From Comamonadaceae bacterium (GTDB lineage: Bacteria; Pseudomonadota; Gammaproteobacteria; Burkholderiales; Burkholderiaceae_C): a stretch of 64,000 nt of DNA. A model generated the notes under the pieces. It had not been told where the DNA came from and did no database searches. It was given only the letters and a program-made list of their open reading frames with translations. Positions 36,201-54,116 of this stretch are shown one piece after another (within the stretch, counting starts at the first letter, position 1; each line of letters opens with the position of its first letter). Both the position numbers and the translations under genes were made by a program. The stretch is from contig JAIXOM010000041.1 in assembly GCA_027486755.1 (NCBI GenBank), positions 62,001 through 126,000 on the forward strand. The letters run 5' to 3'.

Positions 36201-36202
36201 TG

Positions 36203-36250: not shown

Positions 36251-36263
36251 AAGAATCGGTATC

Positions 36264-37898: not shown

Positions 37899-38150
37899 AT
37901 GCGCGCCTGGCAATTGCAAGAAGCTAAAGCCCGCCTTTCAGAAGTGGTCAAGTGCGCCGAGCGGGAAGGCCCACAAAACATCACCCTGCATGGCCAATCG
38001 GTGGCGGTGCTGGTCTCCCGCGCCATGTTCGACCGGCTGACCGGCAATGAAGTCTCTCTGGTGGAGTTCATGCAAAGATCGCCCCTGTGCGGGGCTGAGG
38101 ACATCGTTCTTGAGCGAGACACCAGCACCATCCGCGAAGTGGAACTGTGA
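37899..38150 (+). CDS. Phd-type antitoxin VapB
   Basis: An 83-aa Phd/YefM-fold antitoxin: MRAWQLQEAKARLSEVVKCAEREGPQNITLHGQSVAVLVSRAMFDRL, then a toxin-binding tail. The ATG at 37899 matches the family start (W-LQEAKARLSE). The stop overlaps the GTG start of the toxin by four bases (GTGA), so translation is coupled. Confidence 0.9.
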   Translation: MRAWQLQEAKARLSEVVKCAEREGPQNITLHGQSVAVLVSRAMFDRLTGNEVSLVEFMQRSPLCGAEDIVLERDTSTIREVEL

Positions 38151-38773: not shown

Positions 38774-41227
38774 ATGACGATACGTATCCACTTGAGCATC
38801 ATTCAGCCAGTCGGCTACATACATTCCCAAGGCTTCCTGGATCAGGCTCGGTATGCGCGCTACCAATTCCGCCGCTTGGGCGCTGAAGTCACCATAGGCA
38901 AGAACCGCCTGCGCGAGGATTCGGTCAATATCATTTTTGGTGCCCACCTGGGCTTTGATGCTGACCTGAAGCAACGCCACACCTGCGTGTTCTTCAACCT
39001 AGAACAACTCGGTGAGGGTGGCGCCCGTGTCAGTCAGCACTATATGAACCTGCTCAGCTCGTCGGCAGTGATCGACTACGACGAGCGCAACCTGGCCGCC
39101 TACGGCTGCCAGCCGGGCGATGTGCCCGTGGTCTCCTTCCAATATGCGCCCTACCTGGCCGCAACCCCTACCCTGCCCCTGCAAGATCGCCCGATCGACC
39201 TGCTGTTTTTTGGCAGCATCAACGAAAGGCGCAAAGACATCTTCTCGCGCATTGAGGCCTGCGGCTGGAGCGTCTCCATGTTCGACCTTCCGCTTTATGG
39301 CGAGGAGCGCGACCAGTTCGTACGCCAAGCCAAAGCTGTTTTCAACTGCCACTTTTATGAAAGCAGCCGTTTTGAGCAGGCGCGGGCTTTTCAGACGCTG
39401 TCGCTGGGAACGCCCGTGATTTCAGAGCGCACCGAGCGCACCACGCCCCCACCGGCCTTTGAAGATGCAGTGAGCTGGGTGCGCGAGGAGGACCTGGAAG
39501 CTTTTTTTCGCGATGAGTTCATGACACCGAGCTGGATCGATCGCTCAGAAGTTCAACTGCGCAATTTCGCAGCGAAGGACGCCCTACCGGCTTGGGCTGT
39601 GGTTTACGACTATTGCCTTGCCGTGCAAGAGATGCAGCCGGCGGCGCCCGATTCGTGGCGGCCCATGCGAATGAGCATCGGCTCGGGCTCGGGCGAGCAT
39701 TACAAACTGGGCTGGCTTAATGTGGATGCACAACCCAAGGCCCAAGCCGATTTGCGAATCGACTGGAACGAGCCTAAGGAATTTCCACTGCGTACAAAAA
39801 CGACAGCCGGGACTCCGGTCATCCTGAATGAGAACCAACTGGAATACATCTACACCCGGCAAGACCTGACACTTGGAAGTAATTCTTCCACTCTACTGGG
39901 CAACATGCTTCGGCTGCTCAAACCAGAAGGCCGGCTGGAGATGGAAATACCCTGCGATACCTTGGCCGGTTTGACCCAGGAGCCTGGCAAACCTCCTCCG
40001 GTCAATACGGCCAACTGGCAACGCGTCAGCCAGCGTTTCTGGGAGCTAGGCAGCCTAGAGCACCGGTTTGAAATTCTGGAATGCGGTTTTGTAGACGCCA
40101 ACTCCATGCCTTGCGAGCCACAAGGTGCTGCCAGCTTACGCCTCACCTGGAGCAAGACCGAAACGAGCGCACGGGAAAGAACCTTAGCTCGGATCTATCT
40201 GCCGGACTTCGGGGGCACTGATGACGACGACAAAGCCTTGGCGCCGATGCAGGAACCGCATCAGAGCCGCCCGGAAAAACTGAGCCCCGAAAGTACACCG
40301 AGTCATAAACGCCCTTTGAATTTCATCTTTTACACGCCGCACTATGACGACAACTCGGGTGGTCTGATCGCCATCTACAAGCTCGCGCACATGCTCAATG
40401 AAAACGGCCATGTCGCAAAAATTTGGCACTGGACGCGCTTGCACGAAAACGAAGTCCGGATGATCAATGGCAAGGTCGCCAAAGAGTTTTTGATTCCCCC
40501 TAACGTGTCCCTGGCCGATATAGATTGCCCCTACCCCATTATTGAAGCTGCAGCCGAAGACATCAGAGACTCGATCGTCGTCTACCCTGAAATCATCGAA
40601 GGCAACCCACTGGGCGCAAAGAAGGTAGTTCGCTGGCTGCTGAACAAGCCGGGGGCTATCACCGGCACGAGCTCTTACGGGTTTGGTGACTTGATTTTTT
40701 ACTACGCGGAACACTTCCTTCCGGAGGGCTTTGTCGCAGACGAGTCGTTTCGTCTGAAGATTGCGGACATGAAGACGCACATCTATAAAGACAATCATGC
40801 GGGGCAACGTGAGGGCGTGTACTACATGGTCAGAAAGGGCCGGGATGTGCCGCATACCTATCACCCAGAAAATTCCTTGCAGGTCGACGGCAAAAGCCAC
40901 GCGGAGCTGGCTGAAATTTTTGCCAAAGCACAGATGTTCATCAGCTACGACCTGCACACGGCATACTCTCTTTTTGCGTCCTTGTGCGGCTGCGACTCAG
41001 TGGTTGTGCCACGCCCGAGCATGAGCAAGGAGCAATGGAAGATCGGCAAGGACCAATCCGACTTGGATGGCATTGCCTATGGCTACGAGGACATCGAGCG
41101 AGCTAGGAAAACCCGCCACGCCATGATCGCCCGAGTCCATCAAGGGCAGGCTCTCAATGTTGAGGCAATGAACAGTTTTTTGGCGACCTGCGAGCGTTAC
41201 CTGACCTGCCCGGGCAGGTCATCATGA
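38774..41227 (+). CDS. three-domain glycosyltransferase/methyltransferase-like protein
   Basis: An 817-aa cytoplasmic protein. Residues 1-285 resemble CgeB/spore-type glycosyltransferases (LLFFGSINERRKDIFSRIEACG, RAFQTLSLGTPVISERTE). Residues 295-450 look like a small SAM-methyltransferase-type domain (SIGSGSGEHYKLGWLNVD, MLRLLKPEGRLEMEIPCD). Residues 495-805 match WavQ/WsaF-like transferases (FIFYTPHYDDNSGGLIAIYKLAHMLNENGH). It lies between the TA island and the lux-like operon and is convergent with the latter. Its last seven codons run into a 20-bp palindrome, so the native C-terminus may have been replaced. Likely role: building the flagellar or surface glycan. Confidence 0.82.
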   Translation: MTIRIHLSIIQPVGYIHSQGFLDQARYARYQFRRLGAEVTIGKNRLREDSVNIIFGAHLGFDADLKQRHTCVFFNLEQLGEGGARVSQHYMNLLSSSAVIDYDERNLAAYGCQPGDVPVVSFQYAPYLAATPTLPLQDRPIDLLFFGSINERRKDIFSRIEACGWSVSMFDLPLYGEERDQFVRQAKAVFNCHFYESSRFEQARAFQTLSLGTPVISERTERTTPPPAFEDAVSWVREEDLEAFFRDEFMTPSWIDRSEVQLRNFAAKDALPAWAVVYDYCLAVQEMQPAAPDSWRPMRMSIGSGSGEHYKLGWLNVDAQPKAQADLRIDWNEPKEFPLRTKTTAGTPVILNENQLEYIYTRQDLTLGSNSSTLLGNMLRLLKPEGRLEMEIPCDTLAGLTQEPGKPPPVNTANWQRVSQRFWELGSLEHRFEILECGFVDANSMPCEPQGAASLRLTWSKTETSARERTLARIYLPDFGGTDDDDKALAPMQEPHQSRPEKLSPESTPSHKRPLNFIFYTPHYDDNSGGLIAIYKLAHMLNENGHVAKIWHWTRLHENEVRMINGKVAKEFLIPPNVSLADIDCPYPIIEAAAEDIRDSIVVYPEIIEGNPLGAKKVVRWLLNKPGAITGTSSYGFGDLIFYYAEHFLPEGFVADESFRLKIADMKTHIYKDNHAGQREGVYYMVRKGRDVPHTYHPENSLQVDGKSHAELAEIFAKAQMFISYDLHTAYSLFASLCGCDSVVVPRPSMSKEQWKIGKDQSDLDGIAYGYEDIERARKTRHAMIARVHQGQALNVEAMNSFLATCERYLTCPGRSS
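41202..41221. repeat. perfect 20-bp palindrome
   Basis: TGACCTGCCCGGGCAGGTCA overlaps the 3' end of the 817-aa gene. Its halves equal the tip (TGACCTGCCC) of the 59-bp inverted repeats that flank the lux-like operon, so it looks like two such ends fused head to head. Confidence 0.85.
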
Positions 41228-41407: not shown

Positions 41408-42631
41408 TCAGAGATGGATGGCGACCTGGCGCGTGAACACGTTTAGCAGGTTGTAGCCATCCCAGACGTGGCCGAAGTCGAGCGCCTGGCCGATCTTCGT
41501 CACGCGGTCGATCGTACGCAGGGGGAGTACCCGCAGGTATTCCGCCATTTCAAGCGCCTCAACGCCAAAGACAGACAGCGTCTGCTCGCGGTCGCTCAGG
41601 GTCTGGAGGAAGTCGGGGACGGTGGCAAAAGCCTGTTCGTAGAACAGGCCATTACCGCAATGGACATGCTTGATGCCCGAGAGCGCCTCGCTGCCAAGCA
41701 GGATGCGCGTCGGGAATGAAAGCGCGCTGGTCTCGCGGTGCAGCGGGTCGGTCGCGACCAGACAGGCTGTGACTAGGCGGTCCATAACCATGCCCGCAGA
41801 ATTCTCGTAGCTCTTGTCCTTCAGCTGCGCTTCGAAAGCGTTCCAAAAACGTTCGCGAGCCGCTGTACAGCTGTCAGGTGGACCGACCCAGGCGACTAGA
41901 CGCGGCGACGAGCAGGCCTGCTGGGCGAACCATATCGAGTCATTGAAGAAGCGGGTGGACAGCTGCTCCAGCGCGCGTTCATCACAGGCCAGCACACTTT
42001 CTGCGTGCAGCATCGCGGCCGAGAAGCGGTCTGGGAAGCACAGCTCTGCAGCCGTCGGGCGCAGCGGCAGCGAGCGGATCTTCTTCACCGTCTCGTCGCC
42101 GCCCCAGACCACACGCAGATGACAGAAGCTGGAAATGAGCGAGGTGACGGCGTCGCTGTGCTCATACGTGAGCACGAAGAAGCGGTTTGCCAGCGCGGCG
42201 TGCTCGTGCGCTAGCAGCTTCGCTAGCTTATCGAGGATGAAGCTCACTTGGTCACCAGAGCCGCGAGAGATGCGAATCAGGTTCACGTTCCCGCACAGCA
42301 TGGACAAAAGGCTCGAATACAGGAAGATCGAATCCACATTCGAGGGTGCGATGTGGTAGACGATACCGCGCGCCGCGCTAACCGCAGGACTGCTTACAAG
42401 CATTTCCTGCTTGAGCTTCGACACGTTGCCAGCCTTAAAGAAATTGGCCAGGACAATCAGTTCCGGAAAGGCACGCGACGTGCGGTCGAGTAGGATGGAC
42501 TTGGCGAAATCGTTGACGAAATCGACGAGGGCAGGATCGAACGGTGCCAACGGACGGGTGCTCGATGCTGCCATCAAGACCGTGTCGAGTTCCCTCTCCT
42601 CTCTAGTCGGAAGGAAGAACTGTACGCCCAT
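41408..42631 (-). CDS. LuxC-like acyl reductase
   Basis: A 407-aa acyl-CoA/acyl-protein reductase of the LuxC family, which reduces an activated acyl group to an aldehyde with NADPH. Family features are GIVYHIAPSNVDSIFLYSSL, LIRISRGSG, VVWGGDETVKKIR and the catalytic Cys in FAQQACSSPRLVAWVG (about residue 240). It is the last gene of the 12-gene operon; its start overlaps the LuxE-like stop by one base. luxAB are absent, so light emission is not the purpose. Comparable luxC genes occur in Aeromonas flagellar glycosylation islands. Confidence 0.9.
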   Translation of the reverse strand: MGVQFFLPTREERELDTVLMAASSTRPLAPFDPALVDFVNDFAKSILLDRTSRAFPELIVLANFFKAGNVSKLKQEMLVSSPAVSAARGIVYHIAPSNVDSIFLYSSLLSMLCGNVNLIRISRGSGDQVSFILDKLAKLLAHEHAALANRFFVLTYEHSDAVTSLISSFCHLRVVWGGDETVKKIRSLPLRPTAAELCFPDRFSAAMLHAESVLACDERALEQLSTRFFNDSIWFAQQACSSPRLVAWVGPPDSCTAARERFWNAFEAQLKDKSYENSAGMVMDRLVTACLVATDPLHRETSALSFPTRILLGSEALSGIKHVHCGNGLFYEQAFATVPDFLQTLSDREQTLSVFGVEALEMAEYLRVLPLRTIDRVTKIGQALDFGHVWDGYNLLNVFTRQVAIHL

Positions 42632-43716
42632 CAGAAATGCCTAACATCGCTGCAGCCACGCACTTCGGCCGACTTCAGGCGGCCATTTACGCGGAAGTAT
42701 TTACCCATGCGCCCGCAGGCGCAGTCGTCTTCGCCGAGCAGAACGCCCACGTCTTCCGTCAGCAGGCTGTGGCCCGGATAGCTGGTCGGAAGGAGGCTGA
42801 GGACCTGGATAAGACCTTCTTCGCCGAACCCGCAGGGTTTGAAATCGATTGCGTCACGGATGATCACGTCCGAATAGTTCGAACTGTGCAGGTGCCCGTG
42901 CTCGCACTCCATGTATATGGAACCGGTCTGCTCAACCATACCGTAGTAGTTGTGCACGCGGCGAAGTCCGGCCCGTTCTAACAAGCCCATCTTGAAGGCA
43001 TCATTAGACACGCTCTCATCTTGCAGCTTCTTCCAGCCGCCGCCGTGGATCAGCATGCTGCGCGGCCCGAAATCGAGCCGGGCGCCTGTTTTCTCCAGTG
43101 CCTGGTACAGGAACTTCCAGATCACGAAGGTGAAACCGAAGGCGGAGATGCCGTTCTCGCTGTACTTTTTGCAATAGGATTGGAGTGCTTCAAGCTTCAG
43201 CCCCATGTCGCGGTCGAGCGCATAGGCATGGTCGCGGCCATACATCGAAAATCCCAGAACGCCCGCCGCGCGCGCATTGAACTTTCTGCGGTCGTTAAGT
43301 ATGTCTTCGGCGTCGACCACGACCATCGGAACGCGGTGCTTACCTAAGAAACTGGACACGATGGAGCCGAGCACCTTGGTCTGCATCGCCGCGTTATCGC
43401 GCGACAGGAAGATGCGCGAGACGGCCTGGCCGCTCGTCCCGCTCGAAGTCAGGGTTTTGAACACCTGCTCGCGCGGTACGCTGAGAAGGTCCAGATGCTT
43501 AAACAGGCGGACCGGGAGGAACGGCAGGTCTTCGAGCTTCTGCGCGGCGATCGCATGCGGAAGGCTCGCGACGATCTTCGCGTAAGGCTCCGACTGCCCA
43601 CGGTGATGCGCACCCAGTTCGTTCAGCAGGTCCAGGAAAAGCCGGACCTTATCGGCCGCACTCAGCGAATAGGGATGGTCGAAATCGAGCTCCTTGAAGT
43701 GGTCGTAGTAGATCAT
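42631..43716 (-). CDS. LuxE-like acyl-protein synthetase
   Basis: A 361-aa member of the LuxE/PaaK-like AMP-forming family, which activates a fatty acid and passes it to a Cys for reduction by LuxC. The phosphate-binding loop is LTSSGTSGQAVSRIF, with YYGMVEQTGSIY and LLTEDVGVLLGEDDCACGRMGKYF following. The acyl-acceptor Cys sits near the end (RGCSD, about residue 355), as in Vibrio LuxE. The ATG at 43716 overlaps the hydrolase stop by four bases; the longer open frame is a shadow of the hydrolase. Confidence 0.9.
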   Translation of the reverse strand: MIYYDHFKELDFDHPYSLSAADKVRLFLDLLNELGAHHRGQSEPYAKIVASLPHAIAAQKLEDLPFLPVRLFKHLDLLSVPREQVFKTLTSSGTSGQAVSRIFLSRDNAAMQTKVLGSIVSSFLGKHRVPMVVVDAEDILNDRRKFNARAAGVLGFSMYGRDHAYALDRDMGLKLEALQSYCKKYSENGISAFGFTFVIWKFLYQALEKTGARLDFGPRSMLIHGGGWKKLQDESVSNDAFKMGLLERAGLRRVHNYYGMVEQTGSIYMECEHGHLHSSNYSDVIIRDAIDFKPCGFGEEGLIQVLSLLPTSYPGHSLLTEDVGVLLGEDDCACGRMGKYFRVNGRLKSAEVRGCSDVRHF

Positions 43717-44303
43717 GCGGCAAGTTTGCTTCCAATGTCCGCCACAGCTTCGGCAATCTCGAAATGGTCGCCGCTGAACCAACGCGCGTCGTGACTCGTC
43801 TGATAAGAAAAATAGCGGTCGGCGTCTGGAAGATAGATCGTGGACGTTTTCCGCGCCTGCGCGCGCAGGCGGTGCGCATCTATGGCGTCGTCCACTTCCG
43901 CAAGCAGGGCGCGGATGCCGTCCTGCGAAAGGGTCGATCGCGCCTTCCGCCCGATCTCCCCGACGAATTCGTCCTGCTCGCGTCGCGCCGCACAGTACAC
44001 CGGGCAGACCTCGAAGCTGGCCCCGCGAGCTTGGTGCGGCAGGAGGCTGGCCAGCAGGCAACCGAGTGAGTGTGCGATCACAGCGTCCACCTTGCCCCCC
44101 GCCTGCTCGCCAATGATCTCGTCGATACCCTCCAAATAGGCATCGACGTCGCGGATGCCGCGGTAATCGATATCGGGAATGAGCATGCGGTAGTCTTTAA
44201 GGCTCTTGAGGTAAGGCAGCCAATAGCCAGCGCTGGTGAACAGCCCGTGCACCAGCAGCAGCGTCCTCGGCTTGGACTTGTTGAGAACGGTCGAGCGGAT
44301 CAT
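43713..44303 (-). CDS. alpha/beta hydrolase (thioesterase-like)
   Basis: A 196-aa compact hydrolase. VHGLFTSAGYW is the oxyanion region, nucleophile Ser79 lies in AHSLGC, with the acid in YLPDADRYF and the His in SGDHFEI. By position it could be a LuxD-like thioesterase that releases the acyl group from ACP for LuxE. It has no signal peptide. It overlaps LuxE by four bases and lies one base from the NeuB-like gene. Confidence 0.8.
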   Translation of the reverse strand: MIRSTVLNKSKPRTLLLVHGLFTSAGYWLPYLKSLKDYRMLIPDIDYRGIRDVDAYLEGIDEIIGEQAGGKVDAVIAHSLGCLLASLLPHQARGASFEVCPVYCAARREQDEFVGEIGRKARSTLSQDGIRALLAEVDDAIDAHRLRAQARKTSTIYLPDADRYFSYQTSHDARWFSGDHFEIAEAVADIGSKLAA

Positions 44304-45326
44304 TTACTGGATCATGGAGGGATAGATCACTTCGTCCGCTGGAATGTCCTGCATAGCGGTCTTGCCGACTACCAAGTCCGCCTGGGTCGGGCTGTAGCCA
44401 TCGCCGGGGCGCTTGAAGTCGATGTCCTCCATCATGATTGTCGTGCCGGCTCCGATGGCGCGTTTGGCGACGATGCTGCGGCGCATGTTGGTGCGTTGGG
44501 CCAGCTCAGCCTCGGATACGGTGCGTTCGGCGGAGCCCAGCGAAGCCCAAGCCACACGGCAGGATGCGATCATGGCGCCGAAGGCATCCGGCTCCATTGC
44601 CATCTGGTTGTCCATGCCGATCCTCTTCGCGTCCAGCGTGAAGTGTTTTTCGATGATGGGCGTGCCCAGGGCCACCGCTGCTATAGGGGTTTCGATGCCG
44701 ATGGTGTGGTCGGAATAGCCGATCGTCAGGCCATCGTACTGCCGGCGCATAGACAGGATGTTATTCAGATTAATGGTGGATGGCTCTGCCGGATAGATCG
44801 ACACGCAGTGCAGTACCGCAACATTGTCGTTGCCCGCCGCGCGGATACAGCTCAGGGCGCGCGCGATCTCCTCTTGGTCAGCCATGCCAGTCGACAGGAT
44901 GATCGCGGTCCCGGTCTTGGCGATGTAATCCAAGTATGGAAGGTTGTTGATCTCCATCGAGGCAATCTTGATGAAGGGAACTGCGCACTCATTCAGCAGG
45001 AAGTCCACTTCGCCGGGCGAATACGGCGTCGAGGCGAAGGCTATACCGCGGCCGTGCGCATAGTCGGCCAGCTGCTTGAGCTGCTCCGACGAGAAACTGA
45101 ATTTGTCGACGAAACGACGGGCTACTGGGTTCTGGCGATAGTAGGTGTTCGAATACAAGGTCTTGGCCGACCACGACTGGAACTTCACGCAGTCGCAATC
45201 CGCATCCTTGGCGGCATCGATCATCTCCATAGCGGTCTCGACCTTGCCGAAGTGGCTGGTATTGAGCTCGGCGATGAAATATGGCCGGCCATGGTTTTCT
45301 ATGACAACGCCATTGTTTAGCTTCAT
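44304..45326 (-). CDS. NeuB-family PEP-dependent aldolase (nonulosonate synthase-like)
   Basis: A 340-aa TIM barrel plus C-terminal SAF domain, as in sialic, legionaminic and pseudaminic acid synthases, which condense PEP with an aldose. Seen: PYFIAELNTSHFG, CVKFQSW, KIASMEINNLPYLD, GYSDHTIGIETPIAAVALGTPIIEKHFTLD and the SAF start IVAKRAIGAGT. Metal histidines (SDH, KHF) are kept. The usual GINHNG is NTSHFG and GPDH is GMDNQ, so the substrate pocket differs from standard NeuB or PseI. No neuC, pseB/C/G or CMP-transferase gene accompanies it. The aldehyde acceptor may come from LuxC. Confidence 0.85.
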   Translation of the reverse strand: MKLNNGVVIENHGRPYFIAELNTSHFGKVETAMEMIDAAKDADCDCVKFQSWSAKTLYSNTYYRQNPVARRFVDKFSFSSEQLKQLADYAHGRGIAFASTPYSPGEVDFLLNECAVPFIKIASMEINNLPYLDYIAKTGTAIILSTGMADQEEIARALSCIRAAGNDNVAVLHCVSIYPAEPSTINLNNILSMRRQYDGLTIGYSDHTIGIETPIAAVALGTPIIEKHFTLDAKRIGMDNQMAMEPDAFGAMIASCRVAWASLGSAERTVSEAELAQRTNMRRSIVAKRAIGAGTTIMMEDIDFKRPGDGYSPTQADLVVGKTAMQDIPADEVIYPSMIQ

Positions 45327-45335
45327 GTTGGTCCC

Positions 45336-47105
45336 CTATTGATCAATCGGTTCCACAATCATCTCGGAGGTGAATACCTCCCGCTCGAGGAATGGCCACT
45401 GGTCTTCCAAAGGCCGGCGCACGAACTTACCGGCGCTGTTCTTCGCATGCGACACCTCAACGTATTCCTGATCTTCTTTGCCCATCACTTCACACAGTAC
45501 AGGACCGTCCGCGCGCATCAGCTGCGCCAGGCCACCTTCCAGGCTCTCAATGTCTTCAATGCGCTGGTATTCCAACCCGAACAGCCCCGCCACCTTCTCG
45601 AAGTCGGGCACTGTGACGCCATTGGCCGGATCAGTACCGATGGTGCGGTTGCGGAATAGCTCCTTCTGGCGCCGGCGTATGATCGAATACACGTTGTTGC
45701 TTACCACGATGAGTTTGACCGGGATTCTCTGCGCGCGAATGGTCTCTAATTCCTGCATGTTCATCATGAAGGAGCCATCGCCCACTACGACCACGACCTG
45801 GCGACCCTCGCCCGCCACGCCCAGTACGGCTGGTAGCGCAAAGCCCATAGCGCCCTGCGACACCGGGTGAATAGCGCGGCGGCGTGGGCCGAAGTCCAGG
45901 TTTGAAGGCAGGATCACTTCGATCAGGCCGGAGTCTGTGATCACGATCGCGTCTTCATCCAGTTTGGAGGAAAGCACATGCGTCAGGTCATACAGGTCGA
46001 CGCGATCCTTTGATGCGAAGTAAGGTTCGCGAGCAAAGCGCGTCTTCCAGTGACGGCATTTGTTGACCCAGGCCGAAATGTCTCCGCTTATGCGGTCTTG
46101 GCCGAGGCGTGTGAACAGCGCGTTTAGGTCCTGCACCACGATGCGGTCTACCTTGAGCTCGTTCTTACGGTGTTCCTGCTCGTCGATATCGACCACGATC
46201 AGCCTGGCTTCGCGCGCAAACTTGCACAGGTCGACCCCAGTGGTAATGGTGGAAAGGCGGTTGCCCAGTACAAGCACGCAGTCCGCGTTCTGCACCGCGA
46301 GCGCTCCGGCGCGAGAGCAACCCATGGTGCCAAGCGAACCAACCGACAGGGCTTTGGACAACGGATAGCAGTCCGCCGAGCTGGGGGTGTAGACAACCGG
46401 GATCTGGTTCGTCTGTGCAAAGGCAGCGAAGGGTTCCAGGACACCTGCCGAACGCAGGCCCGACCCGATAAGGAGCACCGGCCGCTGCGCCGCACCGATT
46501 GCGTCACGCAGGTAGGTGATTTCGGAGTCCGGCGCCGCACATGAGACGACGGGCACGTCGAATCCAGGCAGTTCGGTCGGTTCGATCTGGGCGCTTTGCA
46601 GGTCAAGCGGGATGTCGATCCACACCGGGCCTTTCTTGCCTTCGTTCGCCAAGTAGATCGCCTGCTCCAGGTGCTGGCGGATTGTTCGCGGATCGGTAAT
46701 CGTCACTGCATACTTTGTGATTGGCTTGACAATCTCTACGATATTCGCTTCCTGCTGGCCATAAGTGCGGATGGGATGACGAGTGAAATAGGTTGTCTCC
46801 TGCAGCACGTTTTGACCGGAGATGATGAGTACGGGCAGCCCATCCTGATACGCACTGAGAACGCCAGTAATGGCATTGGTCGAAGCGCAACCGGTTGAGA
46901 TCAGGCACACGCCCAGGGTGTTGTGCAATTGGGCGCGTGCAGTCGCTGCGTAGGCCGCGGCCTGTTCGTGGTGGGTGCAGACGGGACGTAGGCGCTTGGA
47001 CTTGGCAACGGCGTCCGTGAGGAACAGAGCACCGCGCCCCGTTACGAGGAAGACGGTATCCGAGTAATCGGCGACCGTCTCCACCAGGTAATCGGCCAGC
47101 CTCAT
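45336..47105 (-). CDS. ThDP-dependent acetolactate-synthase-like enzyme
   Basis: A 589-aa ThDP enzyme with three domains. The catalytic Glu47 is in CTHHEQAAAYA, the central binding domain has PVLLIGSGLRSAG, and the ThDP/Mg motif starts VVVVGDGSFMMNMQELETI and ends VVSNN (about residues 440-470). It could decarboxylate a 2-oxo acid or join it to an aldehyde. Acetolactate synthase proper is unlikely: no small subunit is present and the gene is embedded in an acyl/sugar operon. Its start overlaps the dehydratase stop by four bases. Confidence 0.85.
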   Translation of the reverse strand: MRLADYLVETVADYSDTVFLVTGRGALFLTDAVAKSKRLRPVCTHHEQAAAYAATARAQLHNTLGVCLISTGCASTNAITGVLSAYQDGLPVLIISGQNVLQETTYFTRHPIRTYGQQEANIVEIVKPITKYAVTITDPRTIRQHLEQAIYLANEGKKGPVWIDIPLDLQSAQIEPTELPGFDVPVVSCAAPDSEITYLRDAIGAAQRPVLLIGSGLRSAGVLEPFAAFAQTNQIPVVYTPSSADCYPLSKALSVGSLGTMGCSRAGALAVQNADCVLVLGNRLSTITTGVDLCKFAREARLIVVDIDEQEHRKNELKVDRIVVQDLNALFTRLGQDRISGDISAWVNKCRHWKTRFAREPYFASKDRVDLYDLTHVLSSKLDEDAIVITDSGLIEVILPSNLDFGPRRRAIHPVSQGAMGFALPAVLGVAGEGRQVVVVVGDGSFMMNMQELETIRAQRIPVKLIVVSNNVYSIIRRRQKELFRNRTIGTDPANGVTVPDFEKVAGLFGLEYQRIEDIESLEGGLAQLMRADGPVLCEVMGKEDQEYVEVSHAKNSAGKFVRRPLEDQWPFLEREVFTSEMIVEPIDQ

Positions 47106-47575
47106 ACCGCGCCCTTGGGCTTGAACTGGTCGAGCACGTCCGGGACGGCGACAACGAAGTCGGCTGAGCAGGCCGGTTCATCGCTCACGAAGCTGACTGC
47201 GGTGCCGGTGGCGATGCCTCGGCGGTAGGACTGAAGCGTCGCGTGGATGATCAGGGTGTTGCCCGGAACGATCTTGCGCTTGAACTTCACGTTGTTAATC
47301 CCCAAGAAACTGGTTTTCTTACCCCGCAGTTCGTCCTTCGAAAGAAAGCTCATAATGAAGGTCTGCACCAGCGATTCGACTTGAATGAAGCCTGGCACAT
47401 TTGGCTCGTCGTCGAAATGTGCGGGGAAGAACCATTCGTTGTAAGAAAAGCACTTCAGACCCGAAGCCCTCTCTCCCGGAACCACGTCGAAAACACGGTC
47501 GACGAACAGTAGCGGGTGCCGATTACGCTGACACTCCTTGATGCCATTGATATCGAAATGCAGGGGTGAATCCAT
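47102..47575 (-). CDS. FabZ/FabA-like hot-dog dehydratase
   Basis: 157 aa. The hot-dog active site is visible: NRHPLLFVDRV (His20), FPAHFDDEPNVPGF (His53) and QVESLVQ (Glu67), matching the FabZ His/Glu dyad. KKTSFLGINNVKFKRKIVPG is the following family strand. It likely dehydrates a 3-hydroxyacyl-ACP made by the KAS III and SDR of the same operon. It is one base from ACP-2 and overlaps the ThDP gene. Confidence 0.85.
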   Translation of the reverse strand: MDSPLHFDINGIKECQRNRHPLLFVDRVFDVVPGERASGLKCFSYNEWFFPAHFDDEPNVPGFIQVESLVQTFIMSFLSKDELRGKKTSFLGINNVKFKRKIVPGNTLIIHATLQSYRRGIATGTAVSFVSDEPACSADFVVAVPDVLDQFKPKGAV

Positions 47576-47809
47576 TTAGATCTCTACCTTGTACTTTGCG
47601 AGGATGGAAATACCCTTTTTGAAGCTCGAAAAGTCAATGATGTCATCAACATCCAATTCAATTCCGAAGGTCTCTTCCAGCGCCGCCATCAATTGCATGT
47701 GGCCGACGCTGTCCCACTCCCCGATACCCTGGTATTCGAGCTGCTCAACATCACCCTCATACTGAAAGGATTCCTTGAAAACACTTTGGTATTTATCGCG
47801 ATTGCTCAT
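47576..47809 (-). CDS. acyl carrier protein 2
   Basis: A 77-aa acidic helical carrier. The phosphopantetheine Ser34 lies in EWDSVGHMQL, followed by LMAALEETFGIELDVDDIID. It carries the growing or finished acyl group as a thioester. It is divergent in sequence from ACP-1, suggesting separate partners. The DNA here is visibly more AT-rich than the flanking flagellar genes. Confidence 0.9.
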   Translation of the reverse strand: MSNRDKYQSVFKESFQYEGDVEQLEYQGIGEWDSVGHMQLMAALEETFGIELDVDDIIDFSSFKKGISILAKYKVEI

Positions 47810-47811
47810 GT

Positions 47812-48042
47812 TTATCTCTCCATAACCTTGAATATGTCGTCAACCGTCTTCATGTGCCTGATCTGTGTCCCGTCGATATCCGAGCGGCCGAAATGCTCTT
47901 CCAGGAGAGCAATCAGCGACAGAGCCGCCATCGAGTCCCAGCTTGAAAGGGATTCCAACTCCTTGTCGGCCTTAACTTCCGAGATATCTACTTCGAGCAT
48001 CTCTGCGAGTAGTCGAGTTTTTTCTGCAATGTCCATCTTCAC
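47812..48042 (-). CDS. acyl carrier protein 1
   Basis: A 76-aa carrier with Ser37 in SSWDSMAALSLIALLEEHFG. The start ATG is preceded by AAGGAG. It is two bases from ACP-2. A tandem ACP pair in one operon, next to its own KAS and dehydratase, points to a dedicated acyl pathway separate from fatty-acid synthesis. Confidence 0.9.
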   Translation of the reverse strand: MKMDIAEKTRLLAEMLEVDISEVKADKELESLSSWDSMAALSLIALLEEHFGRSDIDGTQIRHMKTVDDIFKVMER

Positions 48043-48045
48043 TCC

Positions 48046-48693
48046 TTATCCAATGATTCTTGCTGGGTTGCCCATCAATTTCGAAGCCACGAGAACATCC
48101 TTGAACACCACCGCGCCGGCGCATAGGTAACTGTTCGGGGCAATCGTGGTTGAGGGGATAATTTTGGACCCAGTACCGACGAAACTCGACTCACCTAGTA
48201 CAGCCCCACCGGCTAGGTCGCAGTAACTCATGATGGAACAGTAGTCACCTACCCGAGCATCATGGCCGACTCCGGAATGTGCGTTCATCATGGCGCCATC
48301 GCCTATAGTGGCGTTTGCTGCGACCACGCAGTTCGACTGGATCAGGATCGCCTCACCTAGAGCGGCAAAGCCAGAAACTAGGGCGGTCGGATGGATGATG
48401 TTAGGGAAGGTGAAATTGCCCCTGTATCTCTGATGCAGTTTCTTGCGCACTTCGGACAGTGAAATGCCGAGTATCACGCCGACCTTGCCGTGCATAGCCT
48501 CCAGTTCCGCGGACCCGCCCAGCACGGGCAGACCGTTGACGGTCGTGCCCGGCGCCTTGACCTCATCGATGAAGCCACGCACGGTATAGGCTGGTCCGCG
48601 CGCATTGATAGTCAGGAGCGTGTCGTATATTTCGCGACCCAATCCGCCGGCGCCGAAGATCACCACATCCATTGTTTGTGCCGTACTAGGCAT
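48046..48693 (-). CDS. NeuD/PglD-like sugar acyltransferase
   Basis: A 215-aa protein with an N-terminal Rossmann-like part (MDVVIFGAGGLGREIYDTL) and a left-handed beta-helix of hexapeptide repeats (VSGFAALGEAILIQSNCVVAANATIGDGAMMNAHSGVGHDARVGDY). Family enzymes acylate amino or hydroxy sugars. The catalytic His is in HSGVGHDARVG. The start may be the ATG at 48672, seven codons later. It overlaps the KAS III 3' end and could use acyl-ACP from the neighbouring genes instead of acetyl-CoA. Confidence 0.85.
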   Translation of the reverse strand: MPSTAQTMDVVIFGAGGLGREIYDTLLTINARGPAYTVRGFIDEVKAPGTTVNGLPVLGGSAELEAMHGKVGVILGISLSEVRKKLHQRYRGNFTFPNIIHPTALVSGFAALGEAILIQSNCVVAANATIGDGAMMNAHSGVGHDARVGDYCSIMSYCDLAGGAVLGESSFVGTGSKIIPSTTIAPNSYLCAGAVVFKDVLVASKLMGNPARIIG

Positions 48694-49807
48694 TGACCAA
48701 GCTCCGGGTCTCGTTGTGCAGATTGCCGATGTCGTCTTCGAAGACGCTCGCGCAGCTTCGCACCTTAAACACCTGTGTGTCCTTCAGCGCAAGCACGGCC
48801 ACGCCCAGCGACAGGCCGATGCCGAACCCGCACGCCGAAATCGTTTCGTTGACAGTAGCGTCGCCGTCTCGTGCATAGTGGTCGCAGATTGTCAACGGAA
48901 TCGTCGCCGCGCCAGTGTTCCCGTAGCGATCTATGCTGACGGGCATCTTGCCTTCCACAATCCCCACCCTCTTGGCGATATTCTTCATGATGAACGCGTT
49001 GGCCTGATGCAGGATATGGCAATCGACTTGGTCGTAATCGATGCCGAAATCGTTCTTAAAGTCCTTGATCAGTTTGGGCACTTCGGTAATCGAGAACTTG
49101 AACACATCGGCACCGTTCATGTAGCCGTCGTAGTCATTGCGCACCACGTCCGGCTCGCGCAGGGTACGTTCAAGCGAGCCGATTCGGTGGCGATAGCCGC
49201 CGTAGGGTACGATCAAGCTGCGGTAGCCGGCGCCGATGGTGCGCAGCTTCAAATAGGCTTGATCCGTGGAATTCATGTCTTTGTCGATCAGTACGGCCGT
49301 GCCCGCGTCGTAGGAAAGCATCACCAGTCCGCGGTCCTCGGGCGAGCAATGCTTGGAGACAGTGTCGCCGCACAGCAGCAGCACGCGCTTAATGCCACTG
49401 TTGCTCAAGTAAGAGAGCGCCGCGCTCAGGCCATATACGAAGCCCGAGCAGGCCAGGTTGATGTCGTAGGCGAGGCAGTCAACCGACAGGCCGAGGCGCA
49501 TCTGAAGAACGCAAGCGGTCGAAGGGGCGACGTAGTCCGGCGTCTGGCTGACGAACAGTAGCGCGTCGATCGAATCGCGTTCGATGCTGAGTTCTTCGAT
49601 GATGGTCTTGGCTGCGTGCTCACAAAGGTCGGACGTTGTGGTGCTCTCGTCTGCAACGTAGCCCTGTACGACTCCGACGTTCTTGATGATCTTGTCAACA
49701 ACATCCTGGCCGTACTTTTCCGCAAAATCCTGGCTAGTGCGCAGTCGCGCGGGCACGCTGCTTGCCATCGCCACGATCCGGTAGTTGGAGAAAGTCAGAT
49801 TTGGCAT
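48686..49807 (-). CDS. 3-oxoacyl-ACP synthase III (FabH-like)
   Basis: A 373-aa thiolase-fold KAS III. The triad is complete: Cys120 in NLACSGFVYG, His267 in LHQANAFIMK, Asn297 in RYGNTGAATIP. Start MPNLTFSNYRI; GGAAAGG lies upstream. The insertion around PYGGYRHRIGSLERTL is longer than in housekeeping FabH. It probably begins or extends a dedicated acyl chain on the operon's ACPs. Confidence 0.9.
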   Translation of the reverse strand: MPNLTFSNYRIVAMASSVPARLRTSQDFAEKYGQDVVDKIIKNVGVVQGYVADESTTTSDLCEHAAKTIIEELSIERDSIDALLFVSQTPDYVAPSTACVLQMRLGLSVDCLAYDINLACSGFVYGLSAALSYLSNSGIKRVLLLCGDTVSKHCSPEDRGLVMLSYDAGTAVLIDKDMNSTDQAYLKLRTIGAGYRSLIVPYGGYRHRIGSLERTLREPDVVRNDYDGYMNGADVFKFSITEVPKLIKDFKNDFGIDYDQVDCHILHQANAFIMKNIAKRVGIVEGKMPVSIDRYGNTGAATIPLTICDHYARDGDATVNETISACGFGIGLSLGVAVLALKDTQVFKVRSCASVFEDDIGNLHNETRSLVNA

Positions 49808-49808
49808 C

Positions 49809-50564
49809 TCAAAACACCTTTCCTGAAGATCCGCCACCGTCGATCTTGATTTGGGTGCCGGCGATATGCTGCGACTGGTCTGACAGTAAAAAGGCGATCA
49901 GATCGGCGATTTCGCCCGGCTGTGCGATACCGTTCAGTTGCATGGCGTTGACGTCGGCGATGTCGGCGACGCCGATCTTGCGCATCCAGCGGCGCGTCAT
50001 CTCAGTGTCAACAATGCCTGGCTTGATCGCGTTGATCCGGATCCGTTTTGCCGCCAGTTCTTTGGTTAGCACTCGCACCGCCGCCTCCAGCGCCGCCTTG
50101 GAGGCCGCGTACATGGTCTGCCCCACTCCGCCGCCCTCCGACGCGATTGACGAGACCGCCACGACGCTGGTGGAATAGTCGTCCGTACGCTTCTTGTTCT
50201 TCTCGATAATCTTCAGCAACTCAACGAAGGAGTACACATGCAGGCGCATGACGCGGTCGAATTTTTCGTAGGTCACGAGCTTGATCGGCTCAACTGATTC
50301 CACACCGGCTGCATGTACGAAGCCATAGATACGGGCTGGCAGCTGCGGGGCCAGCGCCGCGATGCCTTCGACGTTGAATAGGTTGACGGCCAGCACAGTC
50401 GTCGACACGCGCAATTGCCCGGCGAGTTCCGTGAGCTTCTCCTGCGAACGGCCAATCAGCACCAGATGATGCGCGTCGTCGTCGAGCTTTGAGACGAGGG
50501 ATCGCCCGATACCAGAAGTCGCACCGGTGATAACGATGATTTTCTTGCCTGCAAGTTCACTCAT
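49809..50564 (-). CDS. SDR-family oxidoreductase (FabG-like)
   Basis: A 251-aa Rossmann reductase: TGATSGIGRSL (cofactor), HAAGV, VAVSSIASEGGG (Ser), TMYAASKAAL (Tyr and Lys), INAIKPGIVDTEM, ending GTQIKIDGGGSSG. The Arg in LVLIGRS suggests NADPH preference. By context it reduces a 3-oxoacyl-ACP, though a sugar-keto substrate is possible. It overlaps the AMP-ligase stop by four bases and lies one base from KAS III. Confidence 0.9.
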   Translation of the reverse strand: MSELAGKKIIVITGATSGIGRSLVSKLDDDAHHLVLIGRSQEKLTELAGQLRVSTTVLAVNLFNVEGIAALAPQLPARIYGFVHAAGVESVEPIKLVTYEKFDRVMRLHVYSFVELLKIIEKNKKRTDDYSTSVVAVSSIASEGGGVGQTMYAASKAALEAAVRVLTKELAAKRIRINAIKPGIVDTEMTRRWMRKIGVADIADVNAMQLNGIAQPGEIADLIAFLLSDQSQHIAGTQIKIDGGGSSGKVF

Positions 50565-51973
50565 GGCTGCTCGATATGCTGCTCAAGAGCAACATAATTG
50601 ACTTTTCCGTTACTCAATCGCGGGATTTCACTGAGTAATGTGCACCTAATCGCGCTACGGTGTATGGACAGTTTTCGTGAGACAAATGTAACCAATTCAC
50701 TCTCGTTAACGTTACCAACAAAAGAAATTCGCAGACTGTCATCCTGACCGAAGCAGATGAATTCGGCCTCCTTGAAACCAGCACACAAGAGCACTTCGAT
50801 CTCGTCGAGCGACACCCGGTTTCCAAACAGCTTAACGAAACGCTTTAGGCGACCGGCGATATAGTAACAGTCGTCTTCGTCCCGATAGGCTAGGTCGCCG
50901 GTGGGAAGGCGTCCGTTCCACTCGTCGCCCTTGGCCAGATCGGCGCGCGTGGTGGCGTAGCCGAGCGTGACGTTGGATCCGTAGTAGACCAACTCCCCCT
51001 TCTCGTAAGCTGCCGCGCATACCTGGCCTAATTCACTCACGATCTCGAAGTGTCCGCCAGGGATCGCGCGACCAATGCTGGCCGACTTCTGGGCCAGCCA
51101 CGCGGGCGGCAGGTAGGACATCCGCGCCGTCGCTTCCGTCTGCCCGTACATCAAGAAGCACGGCCATCCGCGCTCCTGCGAGACACGAGCTAAGTAAGCA
51201 CGGCCCTCATCGGTCATGCGTCCGCCCGCCTGCGACAGGTAGCGCAGAGCATCGAGCTGGAAGCGCTCGAACTTTATCCGCCTGAGCATATCCCAGGTGT
51301 AGGGCACGCCCGATAGCGAGGTGACGCGCTTGCTCTCGACCAGGGTCCAGAACTCGCGGTTTAGGGGCGTAAGCTCGGTCACTTGTATCGCCGCGCCGGC
51401 TAGGAGATGCGTGTTGACAATGGACAAGCCAAACGAATAATTGAAGGGCATTGTCGTAACCGCCACATCGTCGGGACGGATGCCGAGAAATTCAATAATG
51501 GAAGCAGCGTTAGCCTTCAGGTTACTGCAGCTTAAGCGGACAAACTTGCTGCTGCCGGTGGATCCCGAGGTAGTTAGCAACAGTTGCAGGTCAGAGTGCA
51601 GTGCAATGCTTTGGCGGCTTGGCAGCCGAACTAGCACGTAGTGATCGAAACGGTGCACTGGCTCGCCAAGCGAAAGATCCGCATTACGCGACTCCGGCAA
51701 CCAGACGTAGTCCGGGCCATAATCCTCGACGATGCGCTGCAGGGCTGCTGAATGCTGTCCCGCATCAATTAGGATCGGCACCTGCCCGTGGACCATGAAA
51801 CCGATATAGCCGATCAGCGCAGGCACGGAGTTCTCGCACAGGCATAGGATCAGACTACGCCCATCAAAGCTTGGGCGCATCAACTCCACGGCTTGGTGCA
51901 CGTCTAGGTAGGACAGCGCCCGACTGTTCCCCTCAAGGCAGGGCTTGCCGCCATATTGAATCAAGTCGAACAT
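50561..51973 (-). CDS. AMP-forming acyl-ACP/CoA ligase
   Basis: A 470-aa ANL-superfamily adenylate-forming enzyme. P-loop TTSGSTGSSKFVRLS, adenine motif MYGQTEATARM, GDLAYRDEDDCYYIAGRLKRFVKLFG (A8), and the catalytic Lys in LSNGKVNYVAL. It is shorter at the N-terminus than most acyl-CoA ligases and resembles ligases that load a starter acid on a stand-alone ACP. It is the first gene of the 12-gene operon, 45 bp inside the right inverted repeat. Confidence 0.88.
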   Translation of the reverse strand: MFDLIQYGGKPCLEGNSRALSYLDVHQAVELMRPSFDGRSLILCLCENSVPALIGYIGFMVHGQVPILIDAGQHSAALQRIVEDYGPDYVWLPESRNADLSLGEPVHRFDHYVLVRLPSRQSIALHSDLQLLLTTSGSTGSSKFVRLSCSNLKANAASIIEFLGIRPDDVAVTTMPFNYSFGLSIVNTHLLAGAAIQVTELTPLNREFWTLVESKRVTSLSGVPYTWDMLRRIKFERFQLDALRYLSQAGGRMTDEGRAYLARVSQERGWPCFLMYGQTEATARMSYLPPAWLAQKSASIGRAIPGGHFEIVSELGQVCAAAYEKGELVYYGSNVTLGYATTRADLAKGDEWNGRLPTGDLAYRDEDDCYYIAGRLKRFVKLFGNRVSLDEIEVLLCAGFKEAEFICFGQDDSLRISFVGNVNESELVTFVSRKLSIHRSAIRCTLLSEIPRLSNGKVNYVALEQHIEQP

Positions 51974-52179: not shown

Positions 52180-52518
52180 CTACAGCCTGTTTTCGGGCCT
52201 GTGCTTTCGGCCTGTATACGAGGCGCCAATTCGAAAACTATGATGCCCGGCCAAACGATAGCAAATCAGTCTTTTAAATATATCCCTGCTAGCCATATTT
52301 GAGAAAATCTGATAAGCCTCAAATAACTTCTCGAAATTCTCATAAAACCAATTGAAATAGAATATTCGCTCCCCCGTTTGAAAAATATGCGAATTATCCT
52401 GACCGCACAGAGCGTCAAATGTCTCGCTATCATAGTTATCGGTGAATGTATTGAACTTTAGAGACTCATCAACTTGACCAATAATTACATCCCGAAATTC
52501 AAAGGCATTTTTTTCCAT
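52180..52518 (-). pseudogene. N-terminal fragment of an FkbM-like methyltransferase gene
   Basis: A 112-codon frame in notably AT-rich DNA. Residues 50-95 (FYFNWFYENFEKLFEAYQIFSNMASRDIFKRLICYRLAGHH) match the helical leader that precedes the catalytic domain of FkbM methyltransferases in glycan clusters. The SAM-binding domain is absent: after RIGAS the sequence runs into unrelated residues and a stop close to the right inverted repeat. It is probably the remnant of a glycan methyltransferase cut by the insertion event. A Shine-Dalgarno-like AGAGG precedes the start. Confidence 0.6.
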
Positions 52519-52856: not shown

Positions 52857-54116
52857 TTACTTGACCGCGGCCGCATCCATCAGAGACGGCGGTGCAAAAC
52901 TGTAGACCGCTCCAAGATTGGAGAATCTCTCAAATGGGTCGAAAGCATTGAGGCCGCTTGGCGCAGCGTCGGCAAGATCAATGGGTTCAACTTGAATCGT
53001 CAATTTCTTGGCCGGTGAGGCCAATACCTGCACGATGCTTTGGGCCTGTGCATCGCTGAGCCCCGGATAGATGGGCAGGCAAATCACTCGATCGGCCAGT
53101 TGCCGCGCATTGGGCAAGTGAGCGCTCTGCGCAGAAGGCAGATGCCGATACATCGGAAAGTCTGAAATCAGGGGGTAAAAATAGCGTCTGCCATGGATGT
53201 TATGGTGCTTGAGATGCTCGTACAGCTGGTCGCGCGACAAGGGGTAATCGGGCGCCACCATGATCGGGAAGTACGACTGGTTCAAATGATCGCCCTCGGG
53301 CGTCATCGGTACGAGTCCAGCGATCTTGCGTAGCTGCTCTCGGTAATAGCGGTCAATTTGCCGGCGCCGCTCGAGCGCGCGGTCAATGTGCTTGAGTTGC
53401 AACAGGCCCAACGCGGCATTGAACTCGCTCATTTTGCCGTTGATCCCGGTGGCAATAACCGTGGTTTCGTTAGCAAAGCCGAAGTTCTTCAGGTAGTCAA
53501 TGCGTTGCTTGGTTCGCTCATCCTGACAGATGATGGCTCCACCTTCAAATGTATTGAACACCTTGGTCGCATGGAAGCTGAGGATCGACATGTCTCCATG
53601 CTGCAAAACGCTTTGACCCTTGTGGCGCACGCCAAAGGCATGGGCAGCGTCGTAGATCACCTTGAGTCCGTAGGTGTCTGCGATATCTTGGATTTTCTCA
53701 ACATCGCATGGCCGCCCGTAACAGTGGACCGGCATGATGGCCGTGGTCTCTGGAGTGATCATCTCCTCTATCCGTGCTGGATCAAGATTGCAGGTTTGCG
53801 GGTCAACGTCTGCAAAGACTGGCTTGATGTTGTTCCACATCAGAGAATGGGCCGTAGCCACAAAGGAATAAGGCGTGGTGATCACTTCGCCCGAGATCCG
53901 CAAAGCCTGCAAGGCAGTAATCAGTGCCAGCGTGGCATTGGTAAACAGACTCAGGTGCTTTACGCCCAAATACTGCCCGAGGGCCGCCTCGAGTTCCTGA
54001 TGGAAAGGCCCGTTATTGGTCAGGATCTTGTTGCCCCAGATCTTTTCCAGATAGGGCACGAACTCTTCCAGCGGCGGCAGGTAGGGTTGCGTCACGAAGA
54101 CGGGCTGATTCGACAT
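52857..54116 (-). CDS. DegT/DnrJ/EryC1/StrS-family sugar aminotransferase
   Basis: A 419-aa PLP enzyme that aminates a nucleotide-linked keto sugar (VioA/WecE-like). Seen: NKILTNNGPFHQELEAALGQYLG, TTPYSFVATAHSLMW, YDAAHAFGV, the PLP Lys in SFHATKVFNTFEGGA, and NGKMSEFNAALGLLQL. A 50-residue C-terminal extension (ends SFAPPSLMDAAAVK) is not usual for the family. The ATG at 54116 has AGGAG upstream. VioA is the first gene in the P. aeruginosa a-type flagellin island, so a flagellin amino-sugar role fits. Confidence 0.92.
   Translation of the reverse strand: MSNQPVFVTQPYLPPLEEFVPYLEKIWGNKILTNNGPFHQELEAALGQYLGVKHLSLFTNATLALITALQALRISGEVITTPYSFVATAHSLMWNNIKPVFADVDPQTCNLDPARIEEMITPETTAIMPVHCYGRPCDVEKIQDIADTYGLKVIYDAAHAFGVRHKGQSVLQHGDMSILSFHATKVFNTFEGGAIICQDERTKQRIDYLKNFGFANETTVIATGINGKMSEFNAALGLLQLKHIDRALERRRQIDRYYREQLRKIAGLVPMTPEGDHLNQSYFPIMVAPDYPLSRDQLYEHLKHHNIHGRRYFYPLISDFPMYRHLPSAQSAHLPNARQLADRVICLPIYPGLSDAQAQSIVQVLASPAKKLTIQVEPIDLADAAPSGLNAFDPFERFSNLGAVYSFAPPSLMDAAAVK

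Follow-up and report, generated by a model that had tools for sequence, protein, structure and literature searches.

We analyzed a stretch of 64,000 nucleotides, hereafter the window, from the genome of a Comamonadaceae bacterium (assembly GCA_027486755.1, contig JAIXOM010000041.1, positions 62,001–126,000). A minus-strand block of the window, at 41408–51973, consists of twelve uninterrupted co-directional open reading frames (ORFs) located between flagellin genes (Table 1). In transcription order, these encode an AMP-forming ligase, a short-chain dehydrogenase/reductase (SDR), a ketoacyl-acyl carrier protein synthase III (KAS III), a NeuD-like acyltransferase, two acyl carrier proteins (ACP1 and ACP2), a FabZ-like dehydratase, a thiamine diphosphate (ThDP)-dependent carboligase, a NeuB-family synthase, an alpha/beta hydrolase, LuxE, and LuxC. 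With the preferred start sites of LuxE (43716) and KAS III (49807), neighboring genes overlap by at most 8 bp (KAS III/NeuD) and are separated by at most 9 bp (ThDP/NeuB), the widest gap in the block. The twelve genes, their order, strand, and tight packing, as reported in the initial annotation, were thus borne out. Its family names also agree with the domain searches, which identified LuxC, LuxE, Abhydrolase_6, NeuB with SAF, three TPP_enzyme domains, FabA-like, two PP-binding domains, PglD_N with Hexapep, ACP_syn_III, SDR, and AMP-binding. FabG-type families were among the 25 best NCBIfam matches of the SDR, none of those being above the cut-off.

Table 1. Genes of the operon and neighboring features in the window.
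Feature	Position	Strand	Evidence and remarks
AMP-forming ligase	50561–51973	-	PF00501 (1e-33); likely loads a carboxylic acid onto ACP2
SDR ketoreductase, VioR-like role	49809–50564	-	PF13561 (1e-38)
KAS III, VioS-like role	48686–49807	-	ACP_syn_III domains; best PDB match 4efi
Hexapeptide acyltransferase ("NeuD"), VioB/PerB-like	48046–48693	-	TIGR03570 NeuD/PglB/VioB, above cut-off
Acyl carrier protein 1 (ACP1)	47812–48042	-	PF00550
Acyl carrier protein 2 (ACP2)	47576–47809	-	PF00550; partner of AMP/LuxE/LuxC genes
FabZ-like dehydratase/hydratase	47102–47575	-	PF07977 (4e-17)
ThDP-dependent carboligase, YerE/JanthE-like	45336–47105	-	Three TPP domains
NeuB-family PEP-condensing synthase, separate group	44304–45326	-	PF03102 (9e-76) and SAF
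Alpha/beta hydrolase, thioesterase-like	43713–44303	-	PF12697
LuxE-like acyl-protein synthetase	42631–43716	-	PF04443 (2e-49)
LuxC-like acyl reductase	41408–42631	-	PF05893 (2e-23)
DegT aminotransferase, DesI/VioA-like	52857–54116	-	About 880 bp upstream of the operon
GT2 glycosyltransferase (candidate)	54446–55561	-	PF00535 (2e-13)
TPR and GT41 (OGT-like) glycosyltransferase, candidate flagellin modifier	55588–57912	-	PF13844 (3e-82)
Flagellin	30364–31533		Pfam-tested; one side of the operon
Flagellin	58480–59298		Pfam-tested; opposite side of the operon
Flagellin	59455–60276		Called by sequence
Candidate transferase, 817 aa, past the operon end	38774–41227	+	Weak Glyco_trans_1_2 match (E 0.089)

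Residue conservation was scored over 29 related loci, the denominators being the relatives that cover the position in question. Complete conservation was found for LuxC C240 (23/23), LuxE C355 (23/23), ACP1 S37 (7/7), ACP2 S34 (26/26), FabZ-like H53 and E67 (16/16), E47 (15/15) and G442/D443 (16/16) of the ThDP enzyme, SDR Y152/K156 (17/17), T135 (26/26) and K457 (24/24) of the AMP ligase, KAS III C120 and N297 (7/7), and hydrolase S79 (5/5). All of the expected catalytic residues are present in the window, as had been claimed; among the relatives, LuxE T90 (17/24), NeuD H139 (5/11; H144 in 10/11), and KAS III H267 vary, the last being retained in 5/7 and replaced by Tyr in two, most likely those of L062 and L063. 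The LuxE protein could be aligned with LuxE of structure 7xc6, the C-terminal Cys included, and the LuxC profile retrieved LuxC of the same structure (E 1.6e-14) with the active-site Cys aligned. These features, together with a hydrolase possibly in the LuxD role, are shared with LuxCDE of luminous bacteria; the operon differs in its low identity, a likely different acyl group, and the lack of a luciferase gene, as domain searches of the twelve operon genes detected neither LuxA nor LuxB.

A genome collection with a single representative per species (84,980 species) was scanned with six exact peptide patterns, which gave 19 loci; as such patterns detect close relatives only, the resulting counts are lower bounds. 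Three loci (L073–L075, 31–36% identity, no adjoining ThDP gene) were set aside and 16 (L057–L072) kept: six proteobacterial and ten from Bacillota (Lachnospiraceae or Oscillospiraceae, gut Lachnospiraceae among them). All twelve genes were found in the same order in Massilia sp. 9I, Duganella levis, and an Oxalobacteraceae metagenome-assembled genome (MAG), and for this reason the gene set is beyond chance; rearranged versions were encoded in Herbaspirillum aquaticum and a Sphingomonadales MAG. Eight genes (FabZ-like, ThDP, NeuB, ACP2, AMP ligase, hydrolase, LuxE, and LuxC) are also found in five further genomes of proteobacteria, and the same set minus the hydrolase is largely present in the ten Bacillota loci. 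Gene content, catalytic residues, conserved neighborhood, and family relationships are what the sequences show; the operon is a genuine, conserved, and functionally coherent unit.

The ThDP and NeuB genes are adjacent in all 16 loci, preceded by the FabZ-like gene in 14. ACP2 and the AMP ligase were each found in 13/16 loci, and ACP2 adjoins AMP-LuxE-LuxC in both phyla. LuxE was present in 11/16, six of these in Bacillota; where it was absent, the contig ends in or soon after the stretch taken (L061, L064, L066, L069) or no LuxE was found in 3.4 kb downstream (L065). The hydrolase was matched in proteobacterial loci only, and several Bacillota loci carry a different, thioesterase-looking gene (named by eye) between the AMP ligase and LuxE. 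Within the stretches taken, acyltransferases of the NeuD or hexapeptide type occur in nine of the 16 loci and MBOAT in two (one of each new type Pfam-tested); several Bacillota loci adjoin glycan-type genes, namely MBOAT, UDP-sugar acid, or PglC/PglD-like (mostly by eye). Because ten Bacillota contigs agree, a binning error is unlikely for these copies. In two Lachnospiraceae loci (L062, L063), the operon core adjoins MBOAT and SGNH-like genes, and in a Ruminococcus MAG (L069, 542–5197), split transketolase genes lie directly before ThDP-NeuB.

The NeuB-family protein has both NeuB and SAF domains together with the residues for phosphoenolpyruvate (PEP) and metal. Equivalents of E25, K53, K129, S132, S213, H215, and H236 of the meningococcal enzyme, which we take to be the PEP/metal positions, are identical in 16/16 operon NeuBs, and so are those of Gln55, Tyr186, Asp247, and Arg314 (Q55, Y186, D247, R314), presumably the sugar contacts. 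A quick tree was made of 56 NeuB proteins, in which those from the operon (16 sequences, the window and 15 others; L071 was excluded, its NeuB being split over two frames) formed one group with an SH-aLRT support of 94, just below the mark of 95. In 22 columns, the operon NeuBs share an invariant residue that occurs in at most two of 36 comparison sequences (7 PseI-type and 29 family rows); these include Phe112 replaced by Tyr (Phe in 36/36 others) and a block around Asp247. Such a pattern suggests, at the level of sequence, the same reaction with a changed acceptor; a hydroxylated acceptor is possible, because the polar contacts are kept. In a search for close relatives of NeuB in the same family, 51/200 genomes (own included) matched at E ≤ 1e-30, none but the host's own exceeding 43% identity.

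The best PDB match of the ThDP enzyme was JanthE (8rph, 296 bits), followed by acetolactate synthase (212 bits). According to the available excerpts, JanthE is a YerE-like enzyme accepting short to long 2-oxo acids (PMC12188165), and ErwE, also YerE-like, prefers 4-hydroxy-2-oxo acid donors and couples one to a CDP-keto-sugar (PMC12247030). The operon enzyme bears a GDG motif where JanthE has CDG, and its partners are Lux and ACP genes, whereas those of YerE-like carboligases are CDP-sugar genes. In a search of 398 genomes of the phylum, 19 matched at E ≤ 1e-80, own included; the 18 others (L095–L112) are YerE-like ThDP loci outside the operon. Thirteen of them carry an aldol-type gene: NeuB-family in seven, MhpE with MhpF in three (L095, L105, L111), and HpcH-type in three (L106–L108), the HpcH-type seed being a weak Pfam match only and the whole count having no random-locus control and several short stretches; the families of the seeds were confirmed by profile search. 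CDP-glucose pathway genes (RfbF, RfbG, and/or RfbH-type) were found in 10/18, three loci being cut at a contig or stretch end, and no LuxE or LuxC hits were obtained in the 18 loci. A YerE-like enzyme near a 2-oxo acid producer thus recurs, and MhpF, converting acyl-CoA to aldehyde, together with MhpE is the analogue of LuxE/LuxC with NeuB.

Long NeuB-family proteins were encoded near the YerE-like ThDP gene in L096, L098, L099, L100, L101, L102, and L110, with a cupin domain in L098; in L096, L099, and L101, they are also accompanied by CDP-glucose pathway genes and represent a candidate branched-sugar route. L095, L105, and L111 combine the ThDP gene with homologues of MhpF and MhpE (4-hydroxy-2-oxovalerate aldolase) and CDP-sugar genes, a combination that could supply branched-sugar synthesis with hydroxy-oxo acid donors.

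Upstream of the operon, the best NCBIfam match of the DegT aminotransferase was TIGR04427 DesI (dTDP-4-dehydro-6-deoxyglucose aminotransferase, 300 bits), and its best PDB match was 2po3, titled 4-dehydrase, which we take to be DesI. The "NeuD" protein exceeded the cut-off of the TIGR03570 NeuD/PglB/VioB sugar acetyltransferase model, with the perosamine N-acetyltransferase 4ea7 and VioB 7txp as its first and second PDB matches. These two enzymes point to an N-acylated 4-amino-4,6-dideoxyglucose. The precursor dTDP-4-keto-6-deoxyglucose can be made by the host, since RmlB is above its cut-off in the genome (496 bits vs. 365). DegT relatives with 64–69% identity were found in 4/5 other proteobacterial operon genomes searched (that of L065 not among them); as a background, 34 of 300 genomes from the order to which the window belongs, the host's included, matched at E ≤ 1e-120.

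The island of Pseudomonas syringae pv. tabaci contains vioA, vioB, vioS (KAS III), vioR (SDR), acp, vioM, and vioT, which, in the portions of PMC3927599 available, serve the N-(3-hydroxybutyryl)-2-O-methylviosamine of flagellin; vioR mutants are described there as being without modified viosamine. The present locus resembles this island and the flagellin glycosylation island of P. aeruginosa PAK in a putatively VioA-like DegT, a VioB-like acyltransferase, KAS III, SDR, ACP, and the flagellin setting, a likeness judged by gene family and not against the P. syringae protein sequences. Eight genes are added in the operon (AMP, ACP2, FabZ-like, ThDP, NeuB, hydrolase, LuxE, and LuxC); no counterparts of vioM and vioT were identified, no sequence search having been aimed at them.

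LuxE relatives were detected in 25/398 genomes of the phylum (own included), and stretches were taken for 22 of the 24 others. Thirteen loci (L113–L125) encode LuxE proteins 42–55% identical to that of the operon, and all 13 also carry the AMP ligase, LuxC, and ACP2. Seven of these modules are part of pseudaminic acid loci, where they adjoin a PseH-like GNAT gene, and four are next to a NeuD/VioB-like gene; in L119, PseB, PseF, PseG, and PseI were confirmed by family search. Eleven of 13 modules are thus near a likely amino-sugar N-acyltransferase, which fits an acyl-supply role. In L113, L114, and L125, a NeuD/VioB-like gene is joined by a split transketolase, another ThDP carboligase, and L113 and L125 have an additional GMC oxidoreductase in the lux/transketolase module. 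Among the nine remaining loci (L126–L134), only L126 shows the module. LuxE homologues of about 820 aa, approximately twice the usual length, were encoded in L127 and L129–L133, with an AMP-ligase-like gene following in four of these (L127, L129–L131).

A related gene set is found in the flagellin glycosylation island (FGI) of Aeromonas group II, with acp, 3-oxoacyl-ACP reductase, AMP synthetase, luxE, and luxC according to the parts of PMC7874193 available. ACP, SDR, AMP ligase, LuxE, and LuxC are thus shared with the operon; the Aeromonas module sits within a pseudaminic acid locus, and the same parts of the article note no ThDP, KAS III, or FabZ-like gene there. They also describe, for A. 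piscicola AH-3, a 376.14 Da pseudaminic derivative and a glycan ending in an unknown 102 Da moiety. Mono-N-acetyl-pseudaminic acid (274.116) plus C4H6O3 (102.032) gives 376.148; arithmetically, the published mass is thus compatible with the lux module supplying an acyl group of the dihydroxybutyryl type, as well as with other possible compositions.

Taken together, our preferred reading, which we put forward tentatively as a plausible one, is that the operon makes an unusual acyl group with its LuxEC-NeuB-ThDP core and places it on the 4-amino group of dTDP-viosamine, the sugar being probably attached to flagellin in this organism. RmlB, whose gene is at another site in the genome, would provide dTDP-viosamine together with the adjacent DegT. 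LuxE and LuxC would convert an acid to an aldehyde, and condensation of this aldehyde with PEP by the NeuB-family enzyme would yield a 4-hydroxy-2-oxo acid. This acid would then be decarboxylated and joined to a second carbonyl compound by the YerE-like ThDP enzyme, and the FabZ-like enzyme would dehydrate. The finished acid may be loaded by the AMP ligase onto ACP2, as a primer or donor, while KAS III, SDR, and ACP1 would give a 3-hydroxy two-carbon extension. Finally, the VioB-like acyltransferase would move the acyl group to the 4-amino group of viosamine, and the alpha/beta hydrolase may clear or release acyl chains. The order of steps is proposed mainly because YerE-like enzymes recur near aldol-type 2-oxo acid producers, MhpF/MhpE paralleling LuxE/LuxC and NeuB; likewise, we infer the substrates, the nature of the second acceptor, the structure of the end product, and its link to flagellin.

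Several observations weigh against this reading. The 300 bits of DegT fall below the DesI cut-off of 650, its relative was absent on search from the Sphingomonadales operon genome, and the excess of DegT among operon genomes may reflect host kinship, partly or wholly. The kept sugar-contact equivalents of NeuB suit sugar-like and acyl aldehydes equally. The Lux modules of pseudaminic acid loci lack the operon-type pair of NeuB and ThDP, and a CDP-glucose 4,6-dehydratase above cut-off is encoded in one operon locus (L058). No candidate acceptors for the ThDP enzyme can be named, and the substrates and product are putative. A scan of the window with a single sigma-28 consensus and spacers of 10–12 gave three matches against a mean of 1.4 in shuffled sequence, but no such promoter precedes the operon. 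Although 12/16 operon genomes have a flagellin match, in only one of the 16 others (L070) do a flagellin and the operon share a contig and lie within 20 kb of each other, a count in which five contigs shorter than 12 kb cannot tell and NeuB was placed in 15/16 (the split L071 copy being below threshold).

In the host genome, the operon lies between flagellins, and the flagellar decoration proposed in the initial annotation therefore stands here by position only; a general association of the operon with flagellin was not seen across the 16 other operon genomes, five of them with contigs too short to tell, and was rejected. Massilia has 394 kb between the operon and the nearest flagellin, and a DegT relative lies less than 1 kb from a flagellin gene, the operon being elsewhere; for this reason, flagellin may receive the sugar also in genomes whose acyl operon is at a distance. 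In Duganella, no flagellin was found inside the 20 kb taken around the DegT relative. The pathway does not look flagellum-specific and is best described as one for the acylation of surface glycans, here within a flagellar locus.

The nearest precedent for the core is sfmABCDE of Shewanella oneidensis (NeuB, ThDP, SDR, methyltransferase, and ATP-grasp), which is required for flagellin modification. Adjacent NeuB-family and ThDP genes and an SDR are shared with the operon, being likened by gene family and not by sequence; Lux, ACP, ligase, and acyltransferase genes are absent from the sfm operon, and S. oneidensis has PseB/PseC homologues. In the available text of PMC3765264, deletion of sfmA (NeuB) or sfmB (ThDP) leaves flagellin near its unmodified mass, and the modification consists of a 274 Da mono-acetyl-pseudaminic-like unit and an unsolved outer moiety of 236/250/264 Da, apparently nitrogen-free and with O-methyl groups. 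Subtraction from the ion formulae in that text gives C9H16O7 plus methyls for the outer moiety. NeuB with ThDP in flagellin modification is therefore not new, and the view that the assembled chemistry is undescribed can be kept for the whole set: among the open-licence PMC papers listed by our searches, we recognized no description of an operon of NeuB, ThDP, and LuxC/LuxE with two ACPs, a ligase, and an N-acyltransferase, nor of its occurrence in Bacillota.

The main rival, which we consider rather unlikely, is that the product is a C-branched sugar, the ThDP enzyme adding a NeuB-derived unit to a nucleotide 4-keto-sugar in the manner of YerE/ErwE and leaving a tertiary alcohol. The YerE/JanthE likeness of the enzyme agrees with this, as do the CDP-glucose and NeuB-family genes of the related ThDP loci (10/18 and 7/18), the dehydratase of L058, the supply of dTDP-4-keto-6-deoxyglucose in the host, and the Shewanella pair, which serves a flagellin modification whose outer moiety, in the parts of PMC3765264 available, is apparently N-free and O-methylated. 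However, no CDP-glucose 4,6-dehydratase above cut-off was found in the host genome, for which reason CDP-sugar branching there was rejected, an RfbG-type gene occurs in just one of 16 operon loci, and a branched sugar leaves the ACPs, AMP ligase, KAS III, and N-acyltransferase unexplained. A free small molecule, such as a diffusible acyloin, hydroxy-ketone, or lipid with no glycan part, is improbable. LuxC/LuxE and ThDP chemistry suits acyloins, and no sugar genes were recognized by eye beside the Massilia and Duganella operons; yet the family of the operon acyltransferase is one of sugar N-acyltransferases, both of these genomes contain DegT relatives, and several relatives of the operon are in glycan loci, one of them beside flagellin.

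Very improbable is the nonulosonate-like final product suggested in the initial annotation, for which NeuB would join PEP with a sugar-like or branched aldehyde, the condensation product itself being the flagellar sugar acid. The protein is a genuine NeuB with SAF, usual catalytic residues, and several sugar-contacting ones, and its neighborhood is flagellar. Nevertheless, it is the single NeuB of the host genome, forms a separate group, and scores below the equivalog cut-offs of both NnaB (308 of 399.65 bits needed) and PseI (254 of 340.25), while in the related loci the ThDP gene adjoins NeuB in 16/16. The sole match of CTP_transf_3 above cut-off in the host genome was KdsB (a second, at 20.3 bits, falls below), and PF01973, searched with a profile named MptE-like, had no match there; we take this family to hold the Maf flagellin transferases. 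On these grounds, a nonulosonate pathway was rejected as the leading reading. The absence of neuC, pse, and CMP-transferase genes reported earlier is upheld insofar as no CMP-nonulosonate synthetase was found, in a search that did not include every Leg/Pse/Neu gene; a complete nonulosonate route is not visible in the host genome, where PseB, PseC, PseG, and LegB were not searched individually.

Among the other neighbors of the operon, the protein encoded at 38774–41227 matched no family above cut-off with Pfam and NCBIfam profiles. By eye, it has glycosyltransferase-like ends and a methyltransferase-like middle, and a distant relative adjoins the lux/transketolase cluster of L125. A short minus-strand ORF without a family match (52180–52518) is located between DegT and the operon; by eye, it resembles the start of an FkbM-type methyltransferase and is possibly a remnant. 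Three small gene pairs or partial pairs at 33686–38560, not distant from the flagellin at 30364, resemble antitoxin/PIN-type toxin modules on visual inspection.

More generally, and with somewhat greater reserve than for the viosamine reading, we regard it as possible that the core common to Proteobacteria and gut Bacillota is a previously undescribed carbon-chain assembly line for amino-sugar N-acylation, in which NeuB extends an acyl aldehyde made by LuxC with PEP and the YerE-like ThDP enzyme makes the next C–C bond. If this is true, a family known for sialic-acid-type synthases, that of NeuB, would also provide a chain extender acting on acyl aldehydes. The lux genes of flagellin glycosylation islands would gain a function, the supply of unusual acyl groups for amino sugars, and the unexplained flagellin masses of Shewanella and Aeromonas would have a testable route.

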